A stretch of DNA of 64,000 nt from Aphanomyces cochlioides (taxonomy: Eukaryota; Oomycota; Saprolegniomycetes; Saprolegniales; Verrucalvaceae), in the NCBI GenBank assembly GCA_019828595.1, contig JAHQRK010000022.1, positions 124,001 through 188,000 of the forward strand, given 5' to 3'. The notes beneath the pieces were generated by a model. That model did not search any database. It saw only the letters and a program-made list of their open reading frames with translations, and was not told the origin of the DNA. This document shows positions 1,541-64,000 of this stretch, piece after piece. How positions within the stretch are numbered: position 1 is the first letter of the stretch; each line of letters opens with the position of its first letter. The position numbers and the translations under genes were made by a program.

Positions 1541-1554
1541 GCCGCGATAGCTCA
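1541..1554 (+). repeat. tRNA-Phe nt 1-14 remnant (target-site duplication, left of A1)
   Basis: gccgcgatagctca is followed at once by the A1 3' end. Its partner is the first 14 nt of the intact tRNA at 9690. Confidence 0.95.
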
Positions 1555-1572
1555 ATGTCAATGGGGAGTCTA

Positions 1573-1596
1573 TTTGTAGTTAATGTAAACTACAAA
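1573..1596 (-). other. Family A 3'-terminal hairpin
   Basis: TTTGTAGTT and AACTACAAA form a perfect 9-bp stem around a 6-nt loop, 18 nt from the element's 3' end. The same hairpin occurs in every A copy (starting at 13094, 27433, 28980, 37125, 44230 and 52376). It lies between two blocks shared with family B (CAATGGGGAG and ACTAATATTGCC). A role as the reverse-transcriptase recognition structure is inferred. Confidence 0.75.
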
Positions 1597-1632
1597 CTAA
1601 TATTGCCCGAAGGCTCATCCCATTTCCAACTG

Positions 1633-2848
1633 CTAGGCTGAATTGGAAATCAATTTGGCTTTTCGTTTTCTTGATTCGCTTCGACGTTGGGACTTCGATT
1701 TCTTCGGTGTTTGTAAGCTAACACGGCGAATATGTCGGATAAAACTGACTCTTGGCATCTGACCCAGGGGGTATACATTTTCATTGTCTTGGATCATACA
1801 TAGACTTCGGTCTATGCAGCGCTTGTATCGCTTGGCGAGGACCCAGCAATGGGATGTTGAATCAGTGACAGAAACAACCAAGAATTCTCCGTCAGGCTCA
1901 TCCAATATCGCTCTACAGATATCACGAATTGGATCACCCACCGATTGCTTGAGCAGTTGACGGGAGAATATGGCGTCGTTGTAGTGGAATCCATGTGTGT
2001 ATGCCAGCTTGAGAAAATCATGCATCTTGGAAGGGGGAATGCCCGCGTCTTGAGGAACTCCATGGGCCTCTTTGAAACCCGAAATGACTTCTTCGCTGAG
2101 CTCAAAATTGGAGACATTCAAATTGGTAGCAACGATTCGGATTGCAGCCGCAAGACAAGATTTGTCACTGTTGTTGCCAATTTCTAGCCACAGAGGATCC
2201 ATCGCTCGAAATTCAGCAAGCGTTTGGGGCGAGACCAGTGTTCGTGAGGAAGTGGGCTCCAGCTTGTCGCCATCGTTGGTACATCGCCACGGCTTCTTGA
2301 CACCCGCTGAGGTCTTTTTCGTCGAACCAGTCTTTGTCGAGTCCATCCGGGCGTTGAAACTTCCAGTTGACTTGGTATTGAATAGTTGAAATTCGATTTC
2401 GCATTGATGCCACTTCGCGGTGGTCATCGATAAACAACACTTCATCGATGTCATCATCGTCGGTTGGAATTCGCAGAGTGCGTGGGCGGTTGGTTGGGGC
2501 ATCAGCCGTTGTCGCATTCGTTTGTGGCCTGGCTGGAACAGAAACATCGTCCAATAGATCCATGAGGGATGGTAGCGGAGATCCATTGTCATTGCCCAAG
2601 GGGTCAAATTCGCGGGTGCTCGAGTTCAAAATGGACATATCAGGAGTAAATTGGTGTTCTTCAGTTGTAACTGGACTTGAAGGACGAGTGTCGGATGATT
2701 GCGTCATAGGTACAGAAATCTCAACTCCATCCACTCCCTCAAGAGTAATCCCTGGAGACATCGAGCTCCCCACACCTCGTGTAGTTATGGGTCTCGACGT
2801 CTGCGCGGGGAGTACGCTATCGGCAGTGAAAATCGTTGAAGCTTCCAT
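1633..2848 (-). pseudogene. ORF3 of A1, chromodomain/cysteine-peptidase-like, frameshifted
   Basis: This is the same gene as ORF3 of A4 (29040-30254). One extra T in the run at 2223-2225 ('gcgtttgggg' where other copies read 'gcgttgggg') breaks the frame between the chromodomain-like segment and the peptidase-like domain. The N-terminal part then ends shortly afterwards at 2213. The first ATG of the intact frame is at 2848. Confidence 0.88.
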
Positions 2849-3061
2849 TGTTGTTGTCTTGGGTAAAATCAAAAGTGAGTCTTGGAGAATTGTTTTGAGA
2901 TTCTCACTGAACTTATTCTCAGTTGCGACACTTGAGTCAGGCACGATTTGATTGGGCAGTGAAATGTTTTGCGCGGATCGTGAGTGATGGTCGCCAGGAT
3001 TCCCAATCAAAAATTCAGCTGGGATACCAAGTCAAGAATACAGCTGGGGCTTGTAATCAAA

Positions 3062-6000
3062 TTACTGGTGTTCAACTCGAAAAGACATGGGATATTTTTC
3101 GAATAGCTCGTTGTATCCAGCTTGAGAGAAAAGGACTGAGACCGCTTCGATGATGTTTCGATAGTCGAAGTCGTCAGGCGAGAGCAAACGAATTGTTCGC
3201 CTGATGGAAGCTGTCCAACTGACAAATATAATCTCGTTCCATAGTAAAATCGGTAGAGGCTTTTTGCCATCGAACTTGGTTGCATTTCTTTGAGTCCATA
3301 AGGAGTACGTGATGGAAGCACAAAGGAGGGACCATAATTTGAATAATGCGTCATGCAGGTGTTTTCCTCGCGTATTGGTCTTGAAGCGACTGATATTCGT
3401 GGTGGTTGCCCAATCAAACTTAACACCATAAGCTCTCCATGCTCGCTCTTGGAACATCCAAACTTGATGTACATGATGACATGTATGGAAGGCATGATGA
3501 AAAGTCTCAACATCCGAGCAATCTTCATAGACACAACAAATAGCGTCAGGGTTTTGGATCTGCATATAGGAAAACCTCGAGTTGACGGGTAACATCTTCA
3601 TGTGCAATCGAAACCATACATCGCCTTGAACAGGTGGAGGTAGATTACACACAGTACGAATGAGACGGATATACTTTGCTATGTCTTTGTCAGTTCTTGT
3701 CGTAGTCTTCATAGGATGTATAGCTTCAGTCTGGGGGGCGTGGTAAGCTAAATGCACCACGTTTTTCTTGGGCCACGACTCGAAAGGTAAATCAGCATCC
3801 TTGATTCTGGCTGTAAACGGATGTTGACAAGTCGGGACATTAGGCAGTGGCGACCCTTGCCGAATGTCAAACGATCGAACAACTTTGTCGAAGATTCGTG
3901 TGAGTTGATTGTAAATGTCGGTTGTGCGGGGCAATGTGGCAAAGTCCATGACTCCGTCCTGGTTTAGACAAACTTGGGCAGCTGGATTGTTCGACGACAT
4001 TCGGTTCACGAACATGGTCTCTGTTGGCCAAGCGCCATGTGGGGTCAGGAAATCCTTCAGGCATCTGAGACCATTTTTGGCCCCGTGGCGGCACCAGAGA
4101 CGCATGTCTTCATCTTTCACGACATTTGCTAACATCTTAGCAGAGCCGAAGTGCATTGCGTCGTAGGCTGTGAGCCATACCGGGAGGTTCAGTACCGTGT
4201 CGAGATTTGGAGACACGCCGATTCGCTTACTCATGTCTGTGGCTGACCAATGTTTCCAAGTATCAAGCCACAGTGGATGGAGCTCGCGAAGCAAAAGCCA
4301 CTTGGAGCTTGCATTTGGGTAGTATGAAAGAAAATCGAATGGGTGACTGTCTCGGAATAACTGATGTATTGTGCGGCTAAATTGTCGCTGTACAAGTTTC
4401 TTCCACACCAGGATTTCACCAGGAGAATCGGCAGACATAAAGAGCTGTAAACGAAGAAGACGTTGTGTTCGCAGCCTCGATGCAATGTGGGGGATTCCCA
4501 GGCCTAAAGGCTTGTCGTACTGCCACCTTCTATGGATTTAGGGACGGTAACTCTCATCGAGCTGGGTCTTGCGGCAAAGTATGAACTTGTTTAACATTTG
4601 TTGCCACGTAACGACCATAGCAGGAGGCACAGGTACAACGGCTGTTACATGCCACAACATAGATAGCAACATCGTGGAGGCAATAAGCTTTCGGCCCTGC
4701 AATGTCCTTGCTCGTTTACCCCATAGTTGAAAGGACGAGATGAATTTGTCGTTGAGTTTTTGAAGTTGGGAGTCAGCCGAAAGTCGATGGCCAAAGAGAA
4801 TACCAAGATATTTCGTACACTGACCAGTTGGTACGATATTGAGCAAACCATCTGCTTCGATGTCTTCTTGATCGAGATGGTCGTTGAGAACCAAGGTCAT
4901 GCACTTGGAACGATTCAGACGGGCCCCTGAAGCCGTGCAAAACTCTTCCACAATTGCCATTTGCTCCACAGCAGATTGCAGCGAGTTTGATAACAACGTC
5001 GAGTCGTCGGCAAAGAATATACTCGTAATAACTGAGTCGTCGTGGGGGAGAGCGATTCCAAGATGTGGGGACGCTCGGAGCATCTCACCAAGAGGTTCTA
5101 GGTATAGGACGAACAGTAGGCATGATAAAGGACAGCCTTGTTTGACGCCTCGGGTAGGTCGGATCTTAGGGCCAAGCTCGCCATTGAAGATGATCTGGAC
5201 CAAAGGTGAGTCGTACAAAAGAGCTACCCACGCAATGAAACCATCACCAGTGTTGACTTCTCTCAGCACATCAAGCATGAATTCTCGATCCACCATGTCG
5301 TACGCTTTCGAAAAGTCAAGGAATGTTGCATAGTAGTCGTGATCTTCGTTGGTGCAAAACGTTTGCAAAGTTTGCACAAGCAGGACGTGGTCATGCAGCC
5401 GTCGTCCTGGGACAAAGCCAGCTTGACTTGGGTGAATGAGATGAGGAGCTACTGTAGCCAGGCGATAAGCGAGGGCACGGGATAGTATCTTCACCTCCAC
5501 TGACATGAGTGCAATAGGTCGGTAGTTTCCAGGATCGCCTCGATCACCAGCTTTGAAGAGCAGAGCCACAGCACTACGCCTTTGTTGAAGGAGTAGTTTA
5601 CCGTGGTGGTGAAGTTGGTAGTTGAAGACCCTGACCAGGATTTCGGAGAAAGCCTCGGGTGCTACTTGGAAGAAGGCCGCTGGCCATCCATCAGGACCAG
5701 GAGACTTGTTTGGACTCATTGTCTTGAGAGCACTACACAGCTCGGCTGCTGTGATAGGTCTGTCTAGCTCCTCGCGTTGCTCATCATTGAGTTTGCGGGA
5801 GATAAACCGTATGACAGCCCTCCGCCTCGCCCGGTTTAGCCGAGGTTGTTCGCCACGAGTGGTAGTCATTATTGCCTTCCAATGGGCAGTGAATCTCTCT
5901 TTGATAGTGGTAGGATCAGACACGGGAATGCCATCGACGTTGACCGTCGTGATAGGAACCTTGAGTCCTTGTGGCCTTCGAAAGAAGTGGCTCGTACCGC

Positions 6001-7180
6001 GTTCGTTGACATTTGCATGAAAATCGAATTGCTGATCCATGCGGTATTGGCGATATTCGATTCTTGCGTTTTCCAGCGCCAACCGAGTAGCATCAACGGC
6101 AGCCTCGTCGAGCAAGCCAGCTTCGTATGATCGTTGTGCAGATATATGTCTCAGTTTTAGGCTTTTGAGCTCGTGTTGCATGGATTGGAGGTGGTGGCGA
6201 TGACATTGTTGTAAACGTCGTTTGATTCGCTTAAGCCACCCATACCAGACGGCTCCCATGTTTGTCGATTCGTCCGCACGCATCTCAGAGAGGAGGTGTG
6301 ATGCCTCTTCTCGTATGGCTTTGATGACGAGCGGGTCTTTGAGTAGCTCTCTCGGCAGCCTCCAGTAGCCACGGGTCGTGGGTGTATGACTTGTAGAGAG
6401 AACGACAGTGTGCTCCAAGTGATCTCCGGCAAAGCTGTTAGTGGCATATTTTGAGCTTTGGTAGGATTGGGCAACTAAATCTTGGTCAATGAACCAGTAG
6501 TCCAGACGATTGCTTCGTCCTGGACCGCTTGCCAGTCTTTCGTGAGGGTGGTGTAGGCGCCACGCGTCGATGACTCCTAGTTGTGACAGCCAGGCAAGAC
6601 ATTCGACTTTTCCAAAGGTGTGATCTTGCCGTGGTTTGGAAGCATCGAGGTGTTCGTTGACAGGAAGGTTAAAATCTCCCCCAACCAGGTGTACACTGTT
6701 AGCTTCAAAAGCGCGAGGGAGACTGTCAAATAAACTAGCCCGATGTTGAGGGGTAACTGGCGCGTAAATGTTGTGGATGTAGACTGGGGTTTCATCCCAG
6801 TACGTTTTGATCACAATATAACGGCCAGGGATATCGTGTTGTGATAAGTGCACCAGGCTTGAGAATCCAGGCATCGATTCGTGAAAGTATGATGCAACGC
6901 CACATCGACGGTTGTTCAAATTGTCCGTGCGGGTTGTTCGTAAGTCGTTGGTAAAAAGTTTGTACTTGCTAACACCCACTTCGTTGTCGAGGTGAGTGTG
7001 GAAAGTGTCAAGATGTTTTGCGTTGTTGAGTTTCGTTTCTTGAAAGAGAACAGCTTGTGTCGGTTTCCGAAGACGCCGTGCAACAAGATGTCCGTTTTCT
7101 TTCAGCCCATTGAGGTTGCTCGTCGTCACTTCAAGTATGGGGAGCTTGACAAAATGACCAGCCGCGACCACTTTAGCCAC
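3062..7180 (-). pseudogene. ORF2 of A1, APE-RT polyprotein with premature stop
   Basis: Full-length ORF2 by comparison with A4, but codon 881 is TAA (4538-4540) where other copies read TCA (Ser). The open part keeps the endonuclease and the RT catalytic block and loses the C-terminal third with the zinc motif. A 3-bp insertion near 5041 adds one Asp just upstream of the FADD motif in the protein. The frame begins without ATG, overlapping the ORF1 stop (7173-7175) in the +1 frame. Confidence 0.92.
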
Positions 7181-9638
7181 GGGAAGCGATCGTTGTGAGA
7201 TCCGCTAGGTCGCCGTGAATTAAAGTAGGTTCGCTTGGGTGAAACATGACTTGATTGTGGAGAGTGATATCCAAATCGTTGCTTTCGTGTAGTTGAAGGA
7301 TTTTTGTCATGATGTGACACATCGATTCTCCGTCGCCAGTGTACATGAATTCCATTCTGTTCCATATGTGGAGGCCAAGGTCGGTGTACATCAGGAGTGA
7401 CATGAGCGTTTCGGAGGATAGACTGCGTTTACCAAGGCGAGAGGGTAACGCTGTCACTGGACTTTTTGTTGAGGCCAAAATTGCCGCATCACTATTGAAA
7501 TATAGTGGAGCATGAACTGCCATCAATACTTCTGCAATGGCCAGCACTTCTTCGACTTCAACTCTGTTGAGGACGATGTCATGATCGGTGATGATTGCCT
7601 CGATGAGTGGGAGGTTGTTGACCATCTTCTGGTCACTGAACACCGAGATCACGTGGTCGTGAGTGATTGGAGTGCCGAATGTTGCCTCGTAGAGCTGACC
7701 AAAAGATTTTGTGCCACCACCAGACGCTCTTAGCCAACGATTAAGCAGTCGAAGACGAACAAAGTATTCGAAGCTGTCACGATTGGAGACAAAAATTTGG
7801 TGCAGTTGCAGTCCAAATTCGATTGGCGCACGTTCTAGATGGATGCAGATCGTGTCAACACGCCCGTCCGTAATCAATTTCAATAAGTTGAAGGAATCGT
7901 GCGCTAACGCTTCCTTAACTTGGGCCGGGATATGTTGTGGTGCGTTTTGAGCCTTGGTGTCAAGGTCGTTGAGCTCGGCAAGTATGGCATCGAGAGACTT
8001 CTCAAACCTTTGGATTGAGCCCTCGTGGGGTTTGATCCCGCTAATGAACTCTTCAGCGGCAACGTGCACCTTGTCACCAGATTTGAGTGTCAGCTTTGGA
8101 ACAATTACTTTGACAGTGGTGTTGCCAACTGTCGTTTCGTGTTCCTCGGGCTCAACATTAGCGCGTTCGTCCAGAGCCGCAAACATGTTCGGGGAGATCC
8201 AAGGACGATCAGGAGCTGGGATTGAGCCAGCGGAGATTGGGGTTTTCTTTCTTTTGCCTGTAGTTTGAACTTCAGTCCATTCCTTGTTGCTGTCTCGGGT
8301 CGTTTTCTGCCGTTTGGCAGTGGATGTCGAGACAGCGGCGTCTCCCCGTGGGCGGTGAGGGGTTGCGTGAAGTCCATGTTGGGTGGCGATTACATCGAGG
8401 TCAAGGCGCGCGAGCTTCTTGTCACGGTAAAACCATCCTTGACCAAACACGCGGAGGCACCGACCCTTGAAAATGAATTCTTCAATTGATCGACCGTCAT
8501 TGTGCATAGATTCGGGTATAGCTGTCCCTTCAAAATACAAGCGATAACGAGAGCTAGCCAAGCCAGTCGTCGAGGAAACTGTGGAGTATGAGCCCCACAA
8601 AAAGCGCGGCTCAAGCTTTGACATGATGCTGAACATGAGACGTTCTTCATCCTGTCCTTGGAGACCAGATGGGATATCGATGAAATATCCATCAAGTATA
8701 TGGGGCTCAGTCATGACAAATCTCTGAGAGCTGCCATCCTTTGCCACTTGGATCTTGAGAGAGACTCCACGCAGCTTTTTAAGAGCATCTTCAGAGGCTA
8801 TGCCCCACTTGAGAAGACGATTGGAGACATCTTTCTCGCACTTGATGACATCGACAAATGCATCGTCCAAATCAAGCGCTTGGTTGTCAAACAATAGAGA
8901 TGTCATTGCCTTGGAGATGTCGATGTATTTGGTGTATTGGCCAGTGGACATTTGTAGCCAGCCAACAACATCTCTGGGGGAATGTTTTTGGATGGGCAAA
9001 GTGTCGTCAAACGTGAGAGATCCTGTCGCGCGTTTTTGCAACAAAGACGCCAGCTCGGCCATAGTTGGTCGATAATGGCCGACGTCACTGTTCCGCTGAG
9101 CCTTGGCAGATTTAGCTCTCTGCTTGGCTTGGAATTCCCACACGCATTCGTTTGGCTTTTTGGTCGAGGTGTTCGACTCGGGTGGTATTGGCACGGAGCG
9201 TGTTGTAGCAGGAGGCGAGGCATCGATTTGAGCTTCAGGCTCCATTTCCACATCAACATTGGTGTCGCGAATCGATTGGTCTTCAGAGCGCGGCTCCAGC
9301 TCAGTGGCTTGAGTAATCGGTGGGGTATGTGGTTGGTTGTTGTTGGAGATATCCTCTATGTCTTCATCAGGCATCGGAGAAACATTATCCTTGTTGACAG
9401 TTTTGTCGCTGGTACGAGCGCTTGGTAATGGCACGCGACCACCGAGTGTAGCAAGACGTATGGGCGGTTGAGCAGCAGGCGGAGTTTTGTCGATGATTGA
9501 GTCAGGTTCATCGTCATCATCATCGTCAACAATCACCTCCATGATACTAGAAGCGTCCGAGGTATTGCGAAAGGGAGAGGCAGAAAAAGCTGAGGGCTTG
9601 TGTGCATGAGCACGGCTGGAAGAGCGGGTAGTCGCCAT
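7173..9638 (-). CDS. ORF1 of A1 (retrotransposon nucleocapsid-like), 821 aa
   Basis: Intact; ATG at 9636-9638, TAA at 7173-7175. Same architecture as ORF1 of A4: acidic/disordered N-terminus, a conserved block at about residues 190-415, and a basic stretch after residue 440. The only nucleic-acid-binding candidate among the A1 products that is still fully open. The 51 nt upstream are the element's 5' leader, which abuts the tRNA. Confidence 0.88.
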   Translation of the reverse strand: MATTRSSSRAHAHKPSAFSASPFRNTSDASSIMEVIVDDDDDDEPDSIIDKTPPAAQPPIRLATLGGRVPLPSARTSDKTVNKDNVSPMPDEDIEDISNNNQPHTPPITQATELEPRSEDQSIRDTNVDVEMEPEAQIDASPPATTRSVPIPPESNTSTKKPNECVWEFQAKQRAKSAKAQRNSDVGHYRPTMAELASLLQKRATGSLTFDDTLPIQKHSPRDVVGWLQMSTGQYTKYIDISKAMTSLLFDNQALDLDDAFVDVIKCEKDVSNRLLKWGIASEDALKKLRGVSLKIQVAKDGSSQRFVMTEPHILDGYFIDIPSGLQGQDEERLMFSIMSKLEPRFLWGSYSTVSSTTGLASSRYRLYFEGTAIPESMHNDGRSIEEFIFKGRCLRVFGQGWFYRDKKLARLDLDVIATQHGLHATPHRPRGDAAVSTSTAKRQKTTRDSNKEWTEVQTTGKRKKTPISAGSIPAPDRPWISPNMFAALDERANVEPEEHETTVGNTTVKVIVPKLTLKSGDKVHVAAEEFISGIKPHEGSIQRFEKSLDAILAELNDLDTKAQNAPQHIPAQVKEALAHDSFNLLKLITDGRVDTICIHLERAPIEFGLQLHQIFVSNRDSFEYFVRLRLLNRWLRASGGGTKSFGQLYEATFGTPITHDHVISVFSDQKMVNNLPLIEAIITDHDIVLNRVEVEEVLAIAEVLMAVHAPLYFNSDAAILASTKSPVTALPSRLGKRSLSSETLMSLLMYTDLGLHIWNRMEFMYTGDGESMCHIMTKILQLHESNDLDITLHNQVMFHPSEPTLIHGDLADLTTIASRG

Positions 9639-9689
9639 GTTGTCAGTTTTGGACAGTGGTACTGCGGGGTAGCTGGCAAATTGGAAACT
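9639..9689 (-). promoter_or_regulatory. Family A 5' leader of A1
   Basis: The outermost ~35 nt are identical in A1, A4, A6 and B2, although A and B proteins are clearly diverged. In sense the element starts AGTTTCCAATTTGCC, resembling the oomycete initiator (TCATTYYNCAWTTT). Promoter function is inferred; the tRNA lies head to head with it. Confidence 0.5.
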
Positions 9690-9737
<48 letters not shown>

Positions 9738-9762
9738 ACTGGTTCGATCCCGGTTCGTGGCA
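9690..9762 (+). tRNA. trnF-GAA: tRNA-Phe (GAA), regenerated beside A1
   Basis: A complete 73-nt gene identical to that at 417. Its first 14 nt are the duplicated target and its 5' flank is now the A1 leader, so expression would rest on the internal boxes. Confidence 0.96.
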
Positions 9763-10813: not shown

Positions 10814-10861
<48 letters not shown>

Positions 10862-10886
10862 ACTGGTTCGATCCCGGTTCGTGGCA
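10814..10886 (+). tRNA. trnF-GAA: tRNA-Phe (GAA)
   Basis: Identical to the gene at 417 and exactly 1124 bp from the previous copy. Native upstream sequence (catatac) is present. Confidence 0.97.
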
Positions 10887-11937: not shown

Positions 11938-11985
<48 letters not shown>

Positions 11986-12010
11986 ACTGGTTCGATCCCG
12001 GTTCGTGGCA
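11938..12010 (+). tRNA. trnF-GAA: tRNA-Phe (GAA)
   Basis: Identical to the gene at 417, 1124 bp from the previous copy, with native flanks. Confidence 0.97.
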
Positions 12011-13075: not shown

Positions 13076-13153
13076 ATGTCAATGGGGAGTCTATTTGTAG
13101 TTAATGTAAACTACAAACTAATATTGCCCGAAGGCTCATCCCATTTCCAACTG

Positions 13154-14368: not shown

Positions 14369-14524
14369 TGTTGTTGTCTTGGGTAAAATCAAAAGTGAGT
14401 CTTGGAGAATTGTTTTGAGATTCTCACTGAACTTATTCTCAGTTGCGACACTTGAGTCAGGCACGATTTGATTGGGCAGTGAAATGTTTTGCGCGGATCG
14501 TGAGTGATGGTCGCCAGGATTCCC

Positions 14525-14544
14525 AAAAAAAAAAAAAAAAAAAA
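14525..14544 (+). repeat. A20 tract between ORF2 and ORF3 of A2
   Basis: Twenty A on the + strand (T on the element strand) replace the 'aatcaaaaa' found in A1, A4, A5 and A6. A7 has a 17-nt run at the same place. Confidence 0.95.
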
Positions 14545-14592
14545 TTCAGCTGGGATACCAAGTCAAGAATACAGCTGGGGCTTGTAATCAAA

Positions 14593-17500: not shown

Positions 17501-17594
17501 GCCTTCGAAAGAAGTGGCTCGTACCGCGTTCGTTGATATTTGCATGAAAATCGAATTGCTGATCCATGCGGTATTGGCGATATTCGATTCTTGC
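14593..17594 (-). pseudogene. ORF2 of A2, truncated and frameshifted
   Basis: Begins at about residue 372 of ORF2, so the whole endonuclease is missing. The RT block (NYRPIAL, FLDFSKAYD, FFADD) is intact. One G is missing from the run at 15264-15268 (five, where other copies have six), which shifts the frame and removes the C-terminal ~230 residues with the zinc motif. Confidence 0.93.
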
Positions 17595-17608: not shown

Positions 17609-17618
17609 GTGTACAATC

Positions 17619-17680
17619 GCGTATATTAAATTTAATTATACGCTAAATAATAATGACCGTCATTAATCACTCTTGAGTGA
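17619..17680 (-). other. Hairpin cluster at the family C 3' end
   Basis: Three inverted repeats in a row. 17619-17643 is near-palindromic (gcgtata...tatacgc); 17652-17664 is aatgac-c-gtcatt; 17667-17680 is tcactc-tt-gagtga. They lie within 75 nt of the insertion junction, where families A and B have a single hairpin. Confidence 0.7.
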
Positions 17681-17699
17681 ATAATATTGGTACTTGTGA

Positions 17700-52291: not shown

Positions 52292-52343
52292 GTTGTCAGT
52301 TTTGGACAGTGGTACTGCGGGGTAGCTGGCAAATTGGAAACTC
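52292..52343 (-). promoter_or_regulatory. Family A 5' leader of A6
   Basis: Same leader as A1 and A4 plus one extra base at the junction, consistent with a non-templated addition at second-strand joining. Confidence 0.5.
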
Positions 52344-52357: not shown

Positions 52358-52435
52358 ATGTCAATGGGGAGTCTATTTGTAGTTAATGTAAACTACAAAC
52401 TAATATTGCCCGAAGGCTCATCCCATTTCCAACTG

Positions 52436-53650: not shown

Positions 53651-53810
53651 TGTTGTTGTCTTGGGTAAAATCAAAAGTGAGTCTTGGAGAATTGTTTTGA
53701 GATTCTCACTGAACTTATTCTCAGTTGCGACACTTGAGTCAGGCACGATTTGATTGGGCAGTGAAATGTTTTGCGCGGATCGTGAGTGATGGTCGCCAGG
53801 ATTCCCAATC

Positions 53811-53827
53811 AAAAAAAAAAAAAAAAA
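53811..53827 (+). repeat. A17 tract between ORF2 and ORF3 of A7
   Basis: Expansion of the short A run at the same place as the A20 tract in A2. Here the preceding 'aatc' is retained. Confidence 0.95.
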
Positions 53828-53875
53828 TTCAGCTGGGATACCAAGTCAAGAATACAGCTGGGGCTTGTAATCAAA

Positions 53876-55106
53876 TTACTGGTGTTCAACTCGAAAAGAC
53901 ATGGGATATTTTTCGAATAGCTCGTTGTATCCAGCTTGAGAGAAAAGGACTGAGACCGCTTCGATGATGTTTCGATAGTCGAAGTCGTCAGGCGAGAGCA
54001 AACGAATTGTTCGCCTGATGGAAGCTGTCCAACTGACAAATATAATCTCGTTCCATAGTAAAATCGGTAGAGGCCTTTTGCCATCGAACTTGGTTGCATT
54101 TCTTTGAGTCCATAAGGAGTACGTGATGGAAGCACAAAGGAGGGACCATAATTTGAATAATGCGTCATGCAGGTGTTTTCCTCGCGTATTGGTCTTGAAG
54201 CGACTGATATTCGTGGTGGTTGCCCAATCAAACTTAACACCATAAGCACTCCATGCTCGCTCTTGGAACATCCAAACTTGATGTACATGATGACATGTAT
54301 GGAAGGCATGATGAAAAGTCTCAACATCCGAGCAATCTTCGTAGACACAACAAATAGCGTCAGGGTTTTGGATCTGCATATAGGAAAACCTCGAGTTGAC
54401 GGGTAACATCTTCATGTGCAATCGAAACCATACATCGCCTTGAACAGGTGGAGGTAGATTACACACAGTACGAATGAGACGGATATACTTTGCTATGTCT
54501 TTGTCAGTTCTTGTCGTAGTCTTCATAGGATGTATAGCTTCAGTCTGGGGGGCGTGGTAAGCTAAATGCACCACGTTTTTCTTGGGCCACGACTCGAAAG
54601 GTAAATCAGCATCCTTGATTCTGGCTGTAAACGGATGTTGACAAGTCGGGACATTAGGCAGTGGCGACCCTTGCCGAATGTCAAACGATCGAACAACTTT
54701 GTCGAAGATTCGTGTGAGTTGATTGTAAATGTCGGTTGTGCGGGGCAATGTGGCAAAGTCCATGACTCCGTCCTGGTTTAGACAAACTTGGGCAGCTGGA
54801 TTGTTCGACGACATTCGGTTCACGAACATGGTCTCTGTTGGCCAAGCGCCATGTGGGGTCAGGAAATCCTTCAGGCATCTGAGACCATTTTTGGCCCCGT
54901 GGCGGCACCAGAGACGCATGTCTTCATCTTTCACGACATTTGCTAACATCTTAGCAGAGCCGAAGTGCATTGCGTCGTAGGCTGTGAGCCATACCGGGAG
55001 GTTCAGTACCGTGTCGAGATTTGGAGGCACGCCGATTCGCTTACTCATGTCTGTGGCTGACCAATGTTTCCAAGTATCAAGCCACAGTGGATGGAGCTCG
55101 CGAAGC
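53876..55106 (-). pseudogene. ORF2 of A7, C-terminal fragment
   Basis: Starts at about residue 962, downstream of the RT domain. It keeps only the C-terminal region with the zinc cluster. Shares Ser in RAWSAYGV with A6. Confidence 0.92.
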
Positions 55107-55120: not shown

Positions 55121-55138
55121 CTGCAATGGGGAGGTATA

Positions 55139-55163
55139 TTAATAGACTTTAAATATCTACTAA
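55139..55163 (-). other. Family B 3'-terminal hairpin
   Basis: TTAATAGA and TCTACTAA pair at seven of eight positions around the loop ctttaaata. It lies at the same place as the family A hairpin but has unrelated sequence. In B2 (56661-56685) the only change falls in the loop (ctttcaata). Confidence 0.6.
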
Positions 55164-55276
55164 TACTAATATTGCCTACTAACGGCTCATCCCACTTCCA
55201 AATGCTTCAGCAGATTTTCTACCTTGGGCTTTGGAGTACAGCGATTTTTGACTTTTGAATAAATACTTGGGGCTTG

Positions 55277-56628
55277 TTAATTTGGGGTTGAAGGTTGGAG
55301 CGCGAGCAAAGTCGGGTACTTGGCTACCAGTGGGCGATAGACAGGTTGTCTATGCAAAGTATTGATTGCTGAAATTGCTTCCACTCGTTGAGGGCTGTCA
55401 ACTTCTTGGAGGCGAAGCCATCTGCGGATCGATGCATGCCATCGGATGAAGCTGACTTCTTGCCAAATTTCTGGCGGAGGCGGCTCCTTCGATTCGAACT
55501 TGGCGGCGTTGTGCGTTGTCCAAATATAGTGAAGGTTGGAAGCACACAGAAGAGCCCAGAGCACAAACAGTATGTCTTGAAGCTGGCTACCGCGTTCGTT
55601 GACTTGAAAGCGGTCGATGTTGGTGATGGCAGTCCAATCGAAATTGACACCGAAGCATCGCCAAGCGGTCGCGTGAAAACGCCAAAGGGGATACACGCGA
55701 GAGCAGGTGTGGAAGGCGTGGTGTTGGTTCTCCGGTGCGTCGCAATTGGTATAGACACAGCAAATTACGTCTGGCTGCTGAGGTTGCAAGTAGAACAAGC
55801 GCGAGTTGACAGGCAGCATGTTGAACAACAGTCGAAACCAAACGTCGCCATGGAGGGGAGGCGGCCAACGGCATGTTTTGCGGATGAGTCGCACGTAGGT
55901 CGCAATATCTTGTTGCTCGACGCGGGACGATGTCGCCACTGGGTGCGGTTTTCCATCCGAAGGGGCGTGATGCGCCAAACGTGATACGAGTCGCTTGGGC
56001 CAACGCTCGAAGGATAGCAATTGATCTTTGAAAAGTGCCTTGAAAGGGTGACTTGTTGTATCGATATCGGTCAAAGCAGTTCCAGTTCGAACGCCAGACG
56101 TGCGGAGGACTTGGTCGAATATCTTGGTGAGGTGGCTATAAACTTGACCAGCACGTTCGGGTGCTGCAAATCCCATCGCGCCGTTCGCTTGTAACGTCAC
56201 TTGTGCCGCACGGTTGTTGGATGACAGTCGATCAATAAACGCAGCTCTTGTAGGCCATGTCCCTTGCCGTGTCAAGAAGTCTTTGAGGCAGTGGAAACCG
56301 TTTTGAGACGCATGTCTACACCATCGACGACACAGAGCAGTCTTCACGACATTTGATGTAGCACCCGCAGGACCAACTTGCAGAGCGGGGTAGGATGTCA
56401 GCCACACGGGGAGGTTCAAAAGTTCTTCGAGGCTTGGTGGCGAAGCGGTTCGCTTGGCCATAGGTGTGGCGGCCCATTGATGCCAAATGTCGTGCCAAAG
56501 AGGATGCAGCTCCCACAAAAACAACCACTTGGAGCTGTGGTTGGGGAAGTACGTGAGAAAGTCGAACGGGTGGGTGTCGCGATACAGCTTGTTCATGACA
56601 CGGGAAAATTGTCGCTTGACAAGCAACC
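55277..56628 (-). pseudogene. ORF2 of B1, C-terminal fragment
   Basis: Starts at about residue 935 of B ORF2. The zinc cluster is intact here (TNC where B2 has a stop), which makes B1 the reference for the complete B C-terminus. No RT catalytic motif remains. Confidence 0.92.
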
Positions 56629-56642: not shown

Positions 56643-56799
56643 CTGCAATGGGGAGGTATATTAATAGACTTTCAATATCTACTAATACTAATATTGCCTA
56701 CTAACGGCTCATCCCACTTCCAAATGCTTCAGCATATTTTCTACTTTGGGCTTTGGAGTACAGCGATTTTTGACTTGTTGAATAAATACTTGGGGCTTG

Positions 56800-59700
56800 T
56801 TAATTTGGGGCTGAAGGTTGGAGCGCGAGCAAAGTCGGGTACTTGGCTACCAGTGGGCGATAGACAGGTTGTCTATGCAAAGTATTGATTGCTGAAATTG
56901 CTTCCACTCGTTGAGGGCTGTCAACTTCTTGGAGGCGAAGCCATCTGCGGATCGATGCATGCCATCGGATGAAGCTGACTTCTTGCCAAATTTCTGGCGG
57001 AGGCGGCTCCTTCGATTCGAACTTGGCGGCGTTGTGCGTTGTCCAAATATAGTGAAGGTTGGAAGCACACAGAAGAGCCCAGAGCACAAACAGTATGTCT
57101 TGAAGCTGGCTACCGCGTTCGTTGACTTGAAAGCGGTCGATGTTGGTGATGGCAGTCCAATCGAAATTGACACCGAAGCATCGCCAAGCGGTCGCGTGAA
57201 AACGCCAAAGGGGATACACGCGAGAGCAGGTGTGGAAGGCGTGGTGTTGGTTCTCCGGTGCGTCTCAATTGGTATAGACACAGCAAATTACGTCTGGCTG
57301 CTGAGGTTGCAAGTAGAACAAGCGCGAGTTGACAGGCAGCATGTTGAACAACAGTCGAAACCAAACGTCGCCATGGAGGGGAGGCGGCCAACGGCATGTT
57401 TTGCGGATGAGTCGCACGTAGGTCGCAATATCTTGTTGCTCGACGCGGGACGATGTCGCCACTGGGTGCGGTTTTCCATCCGAAGGGGCGTGATGCGCCA
57501 AACGTGATACGAGTCGCTTGGGCCAACGCTCGAAGGATAGCAATTGATCTTTGAAAAGTGCCTTGAAAGGGTGACTTGTTGTATCGATATCGGTCAAAGC
57601 AGTTCCAGTTCGAACGCCAGACGTGCGGAGGACTTGGTCGAATATCTTGGTGAGGTGGCTATAAACTTGACCAGCACGTTCGGGTGCTGCAAATCCCATC
57701 GCGCCGTTCGCTTGTAACGTCACTTGTGCCGCACGGTTGTTGGATGACAGTCGATCAATAAACGCAGCTCTTGTAGGCCATGTCCCTTGCCGTGTCAAGA
57801 AGTCTTTGAGGCAGTGGAAACCGTTTTGAGACGCATGTCTACACCATCGACGACACAGAGCAGTCTTCACGACATTTGATGTAGCACCCGCAGGACCAAC
57901 TTGCAGAGCGGGGTAGGATGTCAGCCACACGGGGAGGTTCAAAAGTTCTTCGAGGCTTGGTGGCGAAGCGGTTCGCTTGGCCATAGGTGTGGCGGCCCAT
58001 TGATGCCAAATGTCGTGCCAAAGAGGATGCAGCTCCCACAAAAACAACCACTTGGAGCTGTGGTTGGGGAAGTACGTGAGAAAGTCGAACGGGTGGGTGT
58101 CGCGATACAGCTTGTTCATGACACGGGAAAATTGTCTCTTGACAAGCAACTTCCATGGGGCAAATGTGTTGGGTGAATTGGGCTGCATCAAGAGTTGGAG
58201 CCGCAGCAGTCGCTGAGTCCGAAGCTTCGAAGCCACATGCGGAATACCGAGGCCGAGTTTTTGATCGAACTGCCACTTGCGGCAAATAGTTGAGCGATGA
58301 TGGTCGGTGATTTGCGTCTTCCGACCAAGGATGTACTTGTTGACCATTCTTTGCCAAACGGCAACCATCGTTGGAGGCACATACACTGCAGCCGTGACAT
58401 GCCATAACAACGACAACAACATGGTCGATACGATGAGTTTGCGGCCTTGGATGGTTCGCGCACGACTTCCCCACGTTTGAAACGCAGCCAGAAACTTGTC
58501 GTTCAGTTGCTGGACTTGAAAATCGCGCGGCAGTCGGTGGCCAAAGAGAATACCAAGGTATTTCACTGGCTTCTCGCTCGGCAAGACGTTCAAGAGGCCA
58601 CCATCGTCGATGTCTTCGATATCGAGATTGTTGTTGAGCGCCAAAGTCATGCACTTGGCAACGTTGAGACGAGCTCCAGACACAGAGCAAAAGTCTTCGA
58701 CAATTGCCATTTGCTCGACCGCCGCTTGGAGGGATGACGAGAGTAGAGTCGTGTCGTCGGCAAAGTAGATGCTCGTCAGTGAGTCTCCATTTGGAAGGGG
58801 AATACCAAAATCAGGAGATCCGCGTAGCATTTCGCCGAGTGGCTCGAGGTAAAGTACGAAGAGCATGCACGATAGGGGGCAACCTTGCTTGACTCCGCGG
58901 GTAGGCCGTATGGTAGGGCCAAGACCGTCGTTGAAAATGATCTGGACCAGAGGCGTATTGTAAAGCAACTGAACCCAAGACACAAATGTGGGACCGATGT
59001 TCATCTCCTTGAGTACGTCGAAGAGAAAGCCTTGGTCAACCATATCGTATGCCTTGGAAAAGTCGAGAAACGTCGCGTAGTAGTCGTGGTCTTCATTGGT
59101 ACAGAAAGTCTGCAATGCTTGTACCAGCATCACGTGGTCGTGCAAGCGACGGCCAGGGACAAAACCAGCTTGGCTTGGGTGAGCGAGGTATGGGGCAACT
59201 TGTGCAAGACGGTAGGCCAGCGCCCGCGATAGAATCTTGACTTCAACCGACATGAGAGTAATCGGCCGATAGTTGCCAGGGTCGCCTCTGTCTCCAGCCT
59301 TGAACAAGAGCGCCACTGCACTTCGGCGTTGTTGGAGCAGGAGGTGACCGTGATGGGTGAGTTGGTAGTTGAACACCTTGAGCAGGATTTGGGCGAATAC
59401 GTCCGGGGAGACTTGAAAGAAAGCTGCAGGCCAGCCGTCTGAACCAGGAGACTTGTTCGGGTTCATAGACTTGAGCGCGCCACACAGGTCTTCCGCCGTG
59501 AGAGGACTTTCCAGAGCGTCGCGCTGTTCTTGAGTGAGACGTCGAGTAATGGCTCGAATGATAGCTCGGCGACGGGCCCGATTCAACGGTGGTTGGTCTC
59601 TTGGAGTGACCATGATGTTTTTCCAATGAGACGTAAAACCAGCCTTGACTTCAGACGGGTCAGTCGACGTTGCACCGTTGATTGTCACGGACGAGAGCGG

Positions 59701-60954
59701 CACTTTGATCCCCTTGGGTCGACGAAAAAAGTGACTGGTACCTCGCTCGTTGACGTTGGCGTGAAAGTCGAATTGCTGATCCAGGTTGAACTGTCGGTAC
59801 TCGCTGCGGGCAGTGTCAAGGGCTTGACGGGCGGTATTAACAATGGATGTCTCAACGAGTCCCATGTCGAATGCTCGGCGGGAAGTAAGCCACTTCATCT
59901 TGAGGCTGTTGAGTGTGTACTTCATCGAGTCAATGTACTGGCGATGACTGACTTGGAGACGCTTCTTCATTCTCTTCAACCAGCCGTACCACTTTGCGCC
60001 AAAGTTTTGAGTGTCGTCTGCGCGCATCTCGTCCAAAAGTTGATTGGCTTCGGCCTTGATCGCTGCGACTACTTGAGGGTTCTTTAAGAGCTCACGGGGG
60101 AGGCGCCAGTAACTTCGGTCGGGAGCTCGCTGCTCGCAGGAGAGGACCACTTTGTGTTCCATGTGGTCGCCTGCAAAGCTGCTTGGGGAATAGCTTGAAC
60201 GTGCGTACGTTTGAGCGACGATATCTTGGTCCACAAACAGGTAGTCGAGGCGGTTGCTTCGACCAGGGCCGCTGTAAACGCGCTCGTTGGGGTGGTGCAT
60301 CCTCCACGCATCGATAACACCAAGTGCTGAAAGCCAGGCAATGCATTCCGCCTTACCAGCGTTGTGGTCTTGGCGAGGTCGAGTCGCGTCCAGATGCTCC
60401 TCCAGGGGTAAGTTGAAATCGCCTCCGACAAAGTGAATGCTGTCGTCTTCAAAGTCGCGAGGCAGATCGTCGAAAAACGGTGCTCGAGAGTGAGCGATAA
60501 CCGGGGCATAGACGTTGTGAAAGTACACAGGAACGCCGTCCCACTGAGTTCGAACAACCATGTATCTTCCAGGTCGGTCATGGGTGGTCAAGTGTTGCAG
60601 GTCGAGGAATCCAGGCATGGATCCATGGAAATACGATGCCACACCGCAGCGCCGATTGTTGAGTGAGTCGACGCGATCAGTGCGGAGATCGTTGGTGAAG
60701 AGCTTGTATTTGCCAACGCCTACTTCGTTGTTGAGGTGGAGTTGGAAGGTTTCGAGATGTTTGATGTTATTGATTTTGGTTTCTTGAAAGAAAACGGCTT
60801 GGGTCGGAATTTGGAGTCGCCGCGCCACAAGATGTCCGTTGTCTTTCAGCCCATTGAGGTTGGCAGTGGTCAGTTCGAGTATGGGGAACTTGGTGAAGAG
60901 ACCGGCCGCGACCACCTTAGCCACGGAACGCGACAGACGTTGCGTTCGCAACAT
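56800..60954 (-). pseudogene. ORF2 of B2: AP endonuclease-reverse transcriptase with a late nonsense codon
   Basis: Open from ATG (60952-60954) for 1229 codons, then TGA at 57265-57267 where B1 reads TGC. The hit residue is the second Cys of the C-terminal zinc cluster (YTNC). The remaining ~154 codons continue in frame to TAA at 56800. Endonuclease (QETK, GGDFN, RLDY, GDH) and RT motifs (NYRPITL, FLDFSKAYD, RGVKQGCPLS, YFADD) are intact. Unlike A and C, an ATG lies upstream, overlapping ORF1 by 38 nt in the +1 frame. Readthrough cannot be excluded, but loss of function is the simpler reading. Confidence 0.9.
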
Positions 60955-63916
60955 CTCCCAGCATGAGTGTCTGAGTGTCGGGTTGGAACATCACTTGGTT
61001 GTCGAAGGTGGGGTCCAGGGAGCCAGCCTCATGGAATTCCAGGATCGTGGTCAAGACGTATCGCGACTTCTCGTCTTCGCCGGCATACAACGTTTCCATG
61101 ATATTCCAAATCAAGAGGCCGAAGCTCGTGTCAAGCAATATGGCAGATAGCGATACGCCCGACAAACAGCGGGAGCCCAAATGAGAAGCCAGTGCAGTGA
61201 CCGGGTACTTGGTAGAGGCCACGATCGCAGCATCACTGTTGTAGTACGTTGGAGCATGAATGGCCAAGAGAACTTCTGCCACAGCCAACACTTCTTCCAG
61301 GTCGCCGCGGTGGAGGGAAATCTCGTCGCCGTCAATGGTAGTATCGATGAAGTCGATGTTCTTGAATAGCTCGATGTTGCTGAAGATGGCTTGAACGTGC
61401 TCGCGGGTCATACGCACACCCCACGTCAATGAGTACAGCTGGGAGAACGGTTTGTCTCCACCCCAAGTCGCTCGAAGCCACCGATGGAGGAGGCGTTGTC
61501 TCACAAAGTACTCAAAGCATGCACGGTCTTCATCAAAAAGTCGGTGCAGTTGCAAGCCAAATTCAATCGGGGAACGCTCGAGATGGCTACACAGCATGTC
61601 GACGCGGCCGTCGTTGATGAGTCGGGCAAGGTTGAACGAGCTGTTGGTCACTGCATCTTCGACTTGGGTTGAGAGATGCAATGGAACTTTGGCTGTCTTG
61701 GTGTCGAGGTCTTGTAGTTCGGCGAGAATTTCGTCAAGAGACATTTCTATGCGCTTGGGAACGCCATCTTGGATCTTGGTGCCGCCGACAAATTGACCGG
61801 ACGTAGGGAGGTGGGGAGGGTCATCCGAGACGTCCAGCTTGGGTACAATCGTTGAGATCTTGTAATCGCCAAACTGAGCAACGTGTTCCTCGGGGTTGAC
61901 ACACACACGTTCGTCGAGGGCTTCAAACATGTTGGGCGAAATCCAAGAGCGGCCATGCTCGGGGGAATCCACTTGCTGTTGCGTCTTCTTGCGCTTGCCT
62001 CTCGACGCCTTGACGCCAGTCCACTGCGGAGGGTTGGCTTGCGCAGTTTTCCGACGTTTTGGCGCCTTGGGAGTCGAAGAAGGCGGGTTGGTTGGGCTGG
62101 GAGCTGGCTTGTTCAATCCATATTGGCGGGACGTTGCATCAAGGTCCAAACGAACCAAGTTCTTGTCACGAAAATACCACCCTTGACCGTACACGCGGAG
62201 ACAACGGCCCTTGAAAAGAATTTCTTCGACGAGACGGCCGTCGCGCTGTATGGTCGTTGGTACGGAGGTTCCTTCAAAGTAAAGGCGGTACCGAGAGCTC
62301 GCCATACCGCTTGAAGAGGAAACGTTGGGGTAGGAGCCCCACAGGAAGCGTGGCTCCAACTTGGTCATGACGTCGAAGATCAGGCGCTCTTCGTCTTGAT
62401 CTTGAAGGCCTTGAGGGATGTCCATGAAAAATCCGCCGAGGACGTGCGGAACGTTCATCGTGAAGTGTTGGGACGAGCCATCTCGAGCGACTTGAATCTT
62501 AAACGCGATGCCTCGCAGCTTCGTCATCGCTTCGTGAGAGGCAACACCCCACTTGAGCATGCGGTTCGGGATGTCCTTCTCGCATCTCACAATGTCAGCA
62601 ATCGCAGTGTCGAGGCCGAGGGCTTGGTTGTCGAAAAGGATCGATGCCATGGCAGCTGAAACATCGATGGTCTTCGTGTGTGCACCCGTGGGCATCTGCA
62701 ACCAGCCGACGATGCCGCGCGCCGAGTGCTTCTGGATCGGGAGGGTGTCTTCAAACGTGAGGGTTCCAGCAGCACGCTTGCGAAGGAGGGGTTCGAGTTC
62801 CTCCATCGTGGGCTGATAAGGAGCAACGTCCTTGGTCTTGATGGCCTTGGCAGACTGAGACCGCTGTTGCGCTTGGAAGGCCCATACGTCGTTGGGGGCC
62901 TGGCGGTTGTTGGGTTGGCCACGGCCAGGTGTCTGGGCTCCGCCAGATTGAGAAATGTTTTCCAAATGCGATCCGGGTGAAGCCTGAGACGATGGCTGGC
63001 GGACTGAGTGAGAGTCCGAGTCGTGCGTCAGACCAACACTCAAGCGTGCGTCAGAGGCTTGGTCTTGTCCGGACCCTGTCCCATGGTGGACAGAGTCACA
63101 CGTTTGACCTTCACTCGCGTTGGACTTCGAGAAGCTTCCATGGGTGACTTGGTCTTGAGTATTCCCATGACCAACACTGGCCACAGGGTTGTTCGCGATT
63201 GTTCCAGATCTTGCCCGATGATTCTTCGAGAAGAGACCATCACTCATGGAGCGACTAGTCTCGATGGGATCTTGACCTGTCGCCAGAGTGGACTTGTCGC
63301 TCGGGGGATTCTTCGAGAAGGGACCTTCACTCAGGGATGGACTGTTCTCGAATCTTCCTTGACATGTCGTCATGTTGACGTCGGTGCTTGAGCGAGTCTT
63401 CGAGAAGCCACTATCACTCGTCGAGAGAACATTCTCGAAAGGAACAGAACCCAACGGAGTCTTGCCAGGCAAGCCACCATCACTCACGATGGACGTGGTT
63501 GATGGAGATTCTTCGGGCAAGGTCGTTGACGTCATGAGCACATCTTCCGAGGTTGGAACGCCGTCTTGCCAGGCTTCGTCGCAAGTGTCAGAGGTCGTTG
63601 GATCATTCGCGGGATCGCAAGCCTTCGTCGAGCGAGTCACAGGCAAGGGTTCAAAACGGCGCGGTTTCGAAGGGGTTGCACGTTGACGTGGAAACGGAAC
63701 GCGCGTTGGAGTAGGGAGCGGATTCGTAGACGCGTCATGATGCGAAGCGTTGGAAGCATCGTCGACGTCCTCTTCCAACGACGACGCCATGTCGGTATCG
63801 CTTGGGGATGGGTCAGCAACGACGATGACGTCCATATCGCTGGGGCTGGACGCCGAGGGAGAGAACGCGGAGGAGCAAGATGGGGCACGAGGGTTGGTCG
63901 AGCGGGTAGCAACCAT
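60917..63916 (-). CDS. ORF1 of family B (nucleocapsid-like), 999 aa
   Basis: Start chosen at ATG 63914-63916 (MVATRS, matching MATTRS in family A); the longer open frame begins only at a TTG. The N-terminal ~350 residues are Ser/Asp/Thr-rich and contain 29-residue imperfect repeats, which account for the extra length over family A. The conserved core (GWLQM, MLKWGVAS, KIQVARDGSSQ, RYRLYFEG, FKGRCLRVYGQGW) is close to that of A. Basic KRRK and GKRKK clusters follow, then SPNMFEALDE. RNA binding is inferred. Confidence 0.86.
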   Translation of the reverse strand: MVATRSTNPRAPSCSSAFSPSASSPSDMDVIVVADPSPSDTDMASSLEEDVDDASNASHHDASTNPLPTPTRVPFPRQRATPSKPRRFEPLPVTRSTKACDPANDPTTSDTCDEAWQDGVPTSEDVLMTSTTLPEESPSTTSIVSDGGLPGKTPLGSVPFENVLSTSDSGFSKTRSSTDVNMTTCQGRFENSPSLSEGPFSKNPPSDKSTLATGQDPIETSRSMSDGLFSKNHRARSGTIANNPVASVGHGNTQDQVTHGSFSKSNASEGQTCDSVHHGTGSGQDQASDARLSVGLTHDSDSHSVRQPSSQASPGSHLENISQSGGAQTPGRGQPNNRQAPNDVWAFQAQQRSQSAKAIKTKDVAPYQPTMEELEPLLRKRAAGTLTFEDTLPIQKHSARGIVGWLQMPTGAHTKTIDVSAAMASILFDNQALGLDTAIADIVRCEKDIPNRMLKWGVASHEAMTKLRGIAFKIQVARDGSSQHFTMNVPHVLGGFFMDIPQGLQDQDEERLIFDVMTKLEPRFLWGSYPNVSSSSGMASSRYRLYFEGTSVPTTIQRDGRLVEEILFKGRCLRVYGQGWYFRDKNLVRLDLDATSRQYGLNKPAPSPTNPPSSTPKAPKRRKTAQANPPQWTGVKASRGKRKKTQQQVDSPEHGRSWISPNMFEALDERVCVNPEEHVAQFGDYKISTIVPKLDVSDDPPHLPTSGQFVGGTKIQDGVPKRIEMSLDEILAELQDLDTKTAKVPLHLSTQVEDAVTNSSFNLARLINDGRVDMLCSHLERSPIEFGLQLHRLFDEDRACFEYFVRQRLLHRWLRATWGGDKPFSQLYSLTWGVRMTREHVQAIFSNIELFKNIDFIDTTIDGDEISLHRGDLEEVLAVAEVLLAIHAPTYYNSDAAIVASTKYPVTALASHLGSRCLSGVSLSAILLDTSFGLLIWNIMETLYAGEDEKSRYVLTTILEFHEAGSLDPTFDNQVMFQPDTQTLMLGDVANATSVAFRG
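63224..63525 (-). repeat. 29-residue repeats within B ORF1
   Basis: Units begin at about residues 131, 160, 189 and 218. Three carry F/I-E-N/T-S-x(6)-G-x-FSK (e.g. ENVLSTSDSGFSK, ENSPSLSEGPFSK, ETSRSMSDGLFSK). A further FSK follows at ~262. They correspond to an 87-bp period in DNA. Confidence 0.75.
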
Positions 63917-63968
63917 ATTGTCAGATAGCGTAGAGTGGTACTGCGGGGTAGCTGGCAAATTGGAAACT
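63917..63968 (-). promoter_or_regulatory. Family B 5' leader
   Basis: The outermost 35 nt match the family A leader exactly, while the inner 17 nt differ. Such conservation in a short leader argues for function, probably promoter or RNP packaging (inferred). Confidence 0.5.

Positions 63969-64000
<32 letters not shown>
63969..64000 (+). tRNA. trnF-GAA: tRNA-Phe (GAA), partial at window edge
   Basis: The first 32 nt match the array tRNA through the insertion site and into the anticodon stem, so this is a continuing tRNA, not a 14-nt remnant. The rest lies outside the window. Confidence 0.9.

Follow-up and report, generated by a model that had tools for sequence, protein, structure and literature searches.

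We describe here three families of retrotransposons, A, B and C, which are inserted between nucleotides 14 and 15 of transfer RNA (tRNA) genes of the oomycete Aphanomyces cochlioides. They were seen in a stretch of 64,000 nucleotides (C15:124001-188000, hereafter the window) within the 76.2-Mb genome of 94 contigs. Judged from the sequence, they are very likely L1-like long interspersed nuclear elements (LINEs) with an apurinic/apyrimidinic (AP) endonuclease, whose insertion is directed to the RNA polymerase III (Pol III) A box of tRNA genes and proceeds by target-primed reverse transcription. Among the tRNA-seeking retrotransposons that we found described, some settle in the neighbourhood of tRNA genes, aided by Pol III factors, and the others are tied to a single isotype. 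Here, AP-endonuclease LINEs use one nucleotide in a promoter common to many tRNA genes, where a fixed stagger would restore the gene.

Ten insertions in an array of tRNA-Phe genes

The window is a section of a tandem tRNA-Phe(GAA) array with units of 1,124 or 1,111 bp. The 14-mer GCCGCGATAGCTCA, which is nucleotides 1-14 of tRNA-Phe, has 18 exact occurrences in the window, every one on the plus strand; in shuffled controls, where up to two mismatches were permitted, a mean of 0.21 and a maximum of 2 were obtained. Eight of these copies run on as tRNA-Phe (417, 9690, 10814, 11938, 26290, 41976, 43087 and 63969), and ARAGORN calls seven of them, the eighth (63969) running past the window end. 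The other ten begin an insert, of which five are full length (1541, 17595, 28948, 44198 and 56629), four are 5′-truncated (13062, 37093, 52344 and 55107) and one is an A/C chimera (27401). The three families measure 8,131 bp (A), 8,681 bp (B) and 7,326 bp (C) at full length. A and C are 71-73% identical across two stretches, each of about 800-900 bp, and the A-to-C junction of the chimera is of the sort left by template switching.

All 24 open reading frames (ORFs) of at least 250 aa in the window run antisense to the tRNA, being encoded on the minus strand. The 14-mer recurs at the far end of every insert, directly, except for one extra base at 52344. The initial annotation had reported ten antisense elements, each directly after this 14-mer, and this is borne out. 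It had also proposed that each element rebuilds the tRNA gene. The repeat of nucleotides 1-14 indeed leaves the right-hand gene whole, but the ten insertions are stacked on four tRNA-Phe genes, in groups of one, two, three and four, and the complete genes left behind are four and not ten, the last 14-mer of each stack opening the complete tRNA. The rebuilt unit at 9690 does not differ from the uninterrupted unit at 417 over 1,124 bp, and neither do the rebuilt units at 26290 and 41976 from the uninterrupted unit at 43087 over 1,111 bp. Over the whole C15 array, which spans the contig's first 274 kb, 83 of the 14-mers were listed. Of these, 39 have no tRNA continuation, and these 39 insertion joints precede 20 of the 44 tRNA-Phe genes. 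As the right-hand gene alone is complete, the rightmost element in a stack should be the youngest. The stacks would record the order of insertion, so that the activities of the families could be dated relative to one another.

Many tRNA isotypes are targeted at the A box

In family A and B copies, the 3′ joint lies, in antisense orientation, immediately after A14, between A14 and G15 of GCTCAG. Genome-wide, GCTCA stands directly before 424 of the 427 matches to the A/C 3′ end and 67 of the 77 matches to the B 3′ end, and the same junction recurs on many contigs. We read the joints of 26 family A copies outside the C15 array, which were selected by their ORF2 and include one of the two in a Phe array on C34. 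The 3′ joint directly follows the GCTCA of a tRNA start in all 26. Wherever the 5′ joint was located (25 copies, all except L065), the tRNA start on the right is the same as that on the left.

ARAGORN assigned the genes at the right-hand joints of family A to Lys-CTT, Asn-GTT, Met-CAT, Ala-CGC and Ile-AAT, besides Phe in the window. At further A/C joints it called Lys-TTT and a truncated Ala-AGC. A Tyr gene with an intron, as well as one unnamed gene (GCCCCTAT...), were read by eye. Family B was found in Phe in the window and, from ARAGORN calls at 5′ joints, in Asn, Cys, Trp, Thr and Ala, with Trp only at a copy whose two sides do not match. Since the same family occupies the same nucleotide of many isotypes, the target is the A box and not tRNA-Phe, as had first been proposed; specificity for tRNA-Phe is rejected. 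The accompanying description of these elements as site-specific non-long-terminal-repeat (non-LTR) retrotransposons joined after A14 is supported. Uninterrupted A boxes of the form TRGCTCAGNYGGNAGAGC number 735 in the genome.

Family A copies do not group by target isotype. Between a copy in Met and a copy in Tyr, which differ in length by 3 bases, there is not a single substitution along 7,137 aligned bases, and a Phe and a Met copy are separated by two substitutions; this comparison leaves out L005, L014 and L025 (opposite orientation) and L019 (other sequence at one end).

We considered whether the specificity could be an artefact of copying. In that case unequal crossing-over and gene conversion within tRNA arrays, or else assembly joins, would have turned a small number of insertions into many. 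The array units are nearly identical, and the Tyr joints on C13, C30, C42 and C77 are mostly without an extra base, as expected of copies of one event. Large tRNA arrays are moreover known in oomycetes and are difficult to assemble (PMC9584435). However, the varied isotypes and contigs, the three families, the varied truncation points and extra bases, and the chimera point to many separate insertions at one nucleotide. Copying within arrays multiplies some copies and is insufficient alone, and we regard it as a very unlikely source of the specificity.

It is also conceivable that the left-hand 14-mer is not a duplication, and that a tRNA fragment (nucleotides 1-14) primed reverse transcription, the product then being joined before a tRNA gene. 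tRNA fragments are known as primers for LTR elements, and the left stub stops exactly where a 14-nt 5′ tRNA fragment would. A single family B copy with Cys on the left and Trp on the right (see below) is of the kind expected, its left stub being unlike the right-hand tRNA. The agreement of left and right starts in 25 of 25 family A copies, which a primer taken from a pool would not give, argues against this. It extends to local variants: the rare tRNA starts ACTCCTAT and TATTGCTCA flank the same element on both sides (L072/L078 and L044/L064), so that the repeat is a local duplication. Priming by tRNA fragments is largely rejected by these matching variants, and we hold it to be extremely improbable.

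Exceptions to the rule

Several observations weigh against insertion of AP-endonuclease LINEs strictly at the A box. GCTCA is missing before three of the 427 A/C 3′ ends, whose sites were not read, and before ten of the 77 B 3′ ends. Many copies lie in tandem arrays, so the above counts overstate the independent events. The AP endonuclease match falls under the Pfam cut-off in A (E 0.0035) and in C (E 0.018). In addition, the B copy at C23:3401112 (L117/L146, C23:3399050-3407990) is flanked by a Cys start to its left and a Trp gene to its right, and is probably a product of recombination between copies. It is one of five B copies outside the window that were read on both sides (the others being C45:2151103, C23:3333783, C78:13528 and C1:4336654), and the left and right tRNAs match in the other four.

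Among the ten B sites without GCTCA, two follow GTAGCGCA, four follow TAGCTTA, three are not tRNA-like, and at one a Lys A box and then a briefly repeated piece of the element end come before the element. One of the TAGCTTA sites (on C1) carries the 14-mer ACTTCTGTAGCTTA on both sides, which is a perfect 14-bp duplication. The initial annotation had named copies at unrelated sites as evidence that would speak against site-specific insertion. For A and C this evidence was not obtained, 424 of the 427 3′ ends following GCTCA; for B it was obtained in part, with ten of the 77 3′ ends lacking GCTCA.

A and B elements also occupy the A box in the tRNA-like head of a short interspersed nuclear element (SINE; L101 and L106, C15:1146108-1146296 and 1207700-1207890), and the target is therefore not limited to true tRNA genes.

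Proteins, RNA ends and relationships of the elements

A Pfam search detected a reverse transcriptase (RT) in ORF2 of A, B and C, an AP endonuclease in B (E 2e-13) and weak zinc-finger matches in A and B, while ORF1 of the three families gave no match. No endonuclease domain other than the AP type, the restriction-like type included, was found in the element ORFs at E 0.1. ORF2 of family B aligned with human L1 ORF2p (PDB 8uw3 and others) at E 3e-54. The elements thus combine a non-LTR RT and an N-terminal AP endonuclease in one ORF with a target-site duplication and 5′-truncated copies (four of the ten in the window), and A, B and C are L1-like LINEs with an AP endonuclease.

ORF2 overlaps ORF1 by 32, 59 and 74 nt in A, B and C, respectively, and is in the +1 frame every time. 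In A and B the endonuclease match already begins before the first ATG of ORF2, so that translation may continue from ORF1; in C an ATG stands ahead of the match.

In the RT tree, A, B and C fell within a group of 22 of the 39 rows (support 99/94), which includes rows named Aphanomyces astaci, Thraustotheca and Globisporangium. Seven of 46 candidate rows had been left out of this tree, as they lacked the RT stretch or had one whose length was unsuitable, and it contained no reference rows of the Tx1 or R1 clades. Relatives from other species were compared at the protein level only. Family A ORF2 has at least 34 scored matches in the genome, and family B has subfamilies in the same genome with 85% and 67% protein identity, some of which share contigs with tRNA-associated copies. 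No relative was found among viral contigs, where three pattern matches appeared and none was confirmed.

The RNA 3′ ends of A, B and C carry no poly(A). Compared with shuffled sequences, the last 120 nt of the element RNA fold better in A (z -2.4) and C (z -3.3), and weakly so in B (z -1.6). At the other end, A and C begin with AGTTTCCAATTTGCC, part of which matches the FPR motif of oomycetes (CAWTTTNYY or MWTTTNC; PMC3599244), and B has CTTTTGC. These motifs hint, weakly, at a putative promoter at the element 5′ end.

Family A has a third reading frame, ORF3, without any Pfam match. Three database relatives were found, two of them from Aphanomyces cochlioides, and two AlphaFold models were poor (mean predicted local distance difference test scores of 36 and 50). 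Cys292, His394 and Asp415 are invariant across a four-row alignment, and their order, by eye only, suggests a papain-like cysteine protease. No long ORF corresponding to ORF3 was seen in the B and C elements that are full length in the window.

Five-prime joints

We observed that the A/C 5′ end runs into a tRNA start with a complete D arm at 112 places, using a pattern that permitted 0-4 extra bases. At the 100 joints listed out of these 112, there was no extra base in 61, one in 22, two in nine, three in six and four in two. In an unbounded check, the first 50 of the 181 places bearing the 15-base 5′ end were followed. Here 24 led to a complete tRNA and 19 to 9-12 bases and GCTCA, behind which another element begins; one led to tRNA-Asn after 6 extra bases. 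The remaining six do not seem to be element ends; four of them were read and have other flanks. At the A/C joints and those of the window, the tRNA restarts at nucleotide 1 after 0-6 extra bases. These often repeat the first bases of the tRNA (GCTC before GCTCCT, TCC before TCCTCT, runs of G before GGGG), which looks like slippage; other extra bases are not such repeats.

The 15-mer GGCAAATTGGAAACT was also seen in pairs 5-6 kb apart in one orientation (C7:1339436 and 1344574; C8:433612 and 439360), with other flanks where these were read, and such pairs are perhaps the ends of an LTR element.

Proposed mechanism of insertion

We propose that the ORF2 protein would nick the tRNA-sense strand between A14 and G15, and that reverse transcription would prime on A14 with the tail-less, structured 3′ end of the element RNA. 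The other strand would then be cut 14 nt off, at the tRNA 5′ boundary, at a position set by distance rather than by sequence. The gene, its internal promoter and the target would all be restored in this way, making the next hit possible. Because the element RNA is antisense to the tRNA, the tRNA-sense strand would be the first to be nicked, within the A box, and the second nick would fall at the 5′ boundary of the tRNA; this order, already put forward in the initial annotation, is supported if target-primed reverse transcription is used. The 14-nt distance best explains the second cut, because the acceptor-stem sequences differ among isotypes, and because every tRNA gene has its nucleotide 14 at this same distance from its start, the duplication equals exactly what the left side loses.

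Because the joint is invariant and the three off-target B joints have little in common beyond CA before G, recognition of the site as DNA is favoured, and ORF2 probably reads the site mainly as DNA sequence. Alternatively, the site would be chosen through Pol III factors (TFIIIC/TFIIIB) bound to the tRNA gene, as for TRE5-A of Dictyostelium, and the endonuclease would give a local preference only. The A box is the TFIIIC site, and the SINE heads in which insertions of A, B and C were found (L101, L106) carry A and B boxes. Moreover, the TRE5-A ORF1 protein binds TFIIIB, and targeting by TRE5-A requires the B box (PMC5911963). However, TRE elements land outside the gene at a variable distance, whereas the joint here does not vary, and the off-target B joints do not point to such factors either. 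Several of the right-hand tRNA-Ala genes also lack their 3′ half through another insertion, which may have come earlier or later. We consider it rather unlikely that Pol III factors choose the site; it is possible that they assist ORF2 in the targeting.

How an AP endonuclease gains sequence specificity, and whether distance places the second cut, now become directly testable. An endonuclease for the A-box core, with priming by an RNA 3′ end devoid of poly(A), would also be of interest to searches for harmless multicopy sites of gene insertion.

A second site in the anticodon arm

Six tRNA-Ala genes read on C24, C27 and C22 end after the anticodon stem (GCATGCGGG). One of them is followed by a SINE of ~350 bp with a tRNA-like head, in sense orientation, and then by CCGCTTAGCATGCGGG again and the rest of tRNA-Ala, which makes a 16-bp duplication of the anticodon arm. 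In three others a LINE 5′ end comes next, and the two that were read further contain ORF1. Another is followed by a 5′-truncated LINE whose endonuclease shares 29-31% identity with the A, B and C endonucleases (E 3e-29 to 3e-33), and the last by unrecognised sequence. A LINE related to A, B and C, as well as a SINE, use the anticodon arm as a second site, in sense orientation.

A pattern that misses flanks having T at the 20th base located the SINE 3′ end at 91 places. In 76 of them, all on C15, it precedes the same sequence, CCTTGACGTGGAGAAGGTCC, in tandem units; this sequence is Val-like by eye. Several other SINE 3′ ends precede other anticodon-arm-like sequences.

Comparison with known systems

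Searches of the open-access literature, which did not extend to subscription papers and Repbase entries, yielded no account of LINEs with an AP endonuclease that insert within the A box of many tRNA genes. The TRE5/TRE3 and NLTR-A/NLTR-B elements of dictyostelids are, like A, B and C, L1-type LINEs with an AP endonuclease and are associated with many tRNA genes. They are described outside the gene, in windows of several to many bp, with TRE5 40-54 bp upstream and antisense, and NLTR-A 2-6 bp upstream of the mature tRNA (PMC5911963, PMC5006619). The position of NLTR-A resembles the right-hand joint of an A-box insertion. The passages on these elements give no duplication of tRNA nucleotides 1-14, and PMC5006619 does not use the phrase 'target site duplication' in its main text. 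TRE insertions thus lie at a distance, outside the coding part, whereas those described here lie between nucleotides 14 and 15.

NeSL-1_TV, LIN15_SM and LIN25_SM are tRNA-gene-specific non-LTR elements (Pro, Arg and Glu) of the NeSL-related group with a restriction-like endonuclease (PMC4640811). According to this source they use one isotype apiece, whereas an AP endonuclease and at least nine isotypes are found here. Dada DNA transposons insert in tRNA genes at the A box (nucleotides 8-13, TAGCTC) and around the anticodon, with 6-bp duplications and families tied to few isotypes (PMC3706591, PMC8869645), and so use the same two regions of tRNA genes as the present LINEs. However, Dada elements have a DDE transposase in place of the RT, and their 6-bp duplications, as described, do not rebuild the gene as the 14-bp duplication of nucleotides 1-14 does here. 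The LINEs of the Tx1 and R1 clades (Keno, Mutsu, Dewa, R1) target ribosomal DNA, U2, 5S and a tRNA-Leu spacer (PMC4640811, PMC3706591). They have in common with A, B and C an AP endonuclease and one precise site in or beside a multicopy RNA gene, and differ in their targets. Human L1 ORF2p shares the endonuclease-RT architecture of family B ORF2, whereas L1 differs from A, B and C in that its target is short and degenerate and that it carries a poly(A) tail.

It appears reasonably likely that the LINE lineage of A, B and C has made the Pol III internal promoter a renewable landing pad. The A box would be read as DNA in almost any tRNA gene with GCTCA, and the fixed 14-nt stagger would regenerate both gene and target, so that elements could stack while the tRNA genes are kept. 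On the anticodon arm, a related LINE and a SINE would have settled, the A-box elements would also hit the A box of the SINE head, and LINEs and Dada would have converged on the same two places.

Table 1. Features of the window (positions counted from its first nucleotide) and loci of the second site
Feature	Position	Strand	Basis or remark
tRNA-Phe(GAA), uninterrupted	417..489	+	ARAGORN
Family A, full length	1555..9689	-	ORF2 with one in-frame stop; 14-bp duplication 1541-1554 and 9690-9703
tRNA-Phe, rebuilt behind one element	9690..9762	+	ARAGORN and unit comparison
tRNA-Phe, uninterrupted	10814..10886	+	ARAGORN
tRNA-Phe, uninterrupted	11938..12010	+	ARAGORN
Family A, 5′-truncated	13076..17594	-	
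Family B, full length (8,681 bp)	17609..26289	-	ORF1 23695-26229; ORF2 stop to stop 19566-23753 (AP endonuclease, RT)
tRNA-Phe, rebuilt behind two stacked elements	26290..26362	+	ARAGORN and unit comparison
Chimera	27415..28947	-	3′ 957 nt of family A and 592 nt of family C
Family A, full length (8,131 bp)	28962..37092	-	
Family A ORF3, 404 aa	29040..30254	-	
Family A ORF2, 1,379 aa stop to stop	30468..34607	-	RT E 1e-32; AP endonuclease and zinc finger matched weakly
Family A ORF1, 821 aa	34576..37041	-	No Pfam match
Family A, 5′-truncated	37107..41975	-	
tRNA-Phe, rebuilt behind three stacked elements	41976..42048	+	ARAGORN and unit comparison
tRNA-Phe, uninterrupted	43087..43159	+	ARAGORN
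Family A, full length	44212..52343	-	One extra base precedes the next 14-mer
Family A, 5′-truncated	52358..55106	-	
Family C, 5′-truncated	55121..56628	-	
Family C, full length (7,326 bp)	56643..63968	-	ORF1 60917-63916; ORF2 57265-60990, shorter than that of relatives
tRNA-Phe behind four stacked elements	63969..64000	+	Gene cut by window end; A box continues at C15:187976-187993
SINE in two anticodon arms (tRNA-Ala; another tRNA-like gene)	L143+L154 (C24:155800-157700), L152+L155 (C1:4332400-4334200)	sense	16-17-bp duplication
Further LINE, 5′ end or truncated start, behind tRNA-Ala cut after anticodon stem	L148/L159 (C22), L125/L160 and L149/L157 (C24)		
tRNA-Ala cut after anticodon stem, then unrecognised sequence	L127/L158 (C27:556900-558745)		One of the six cut tRNA-Ala genes

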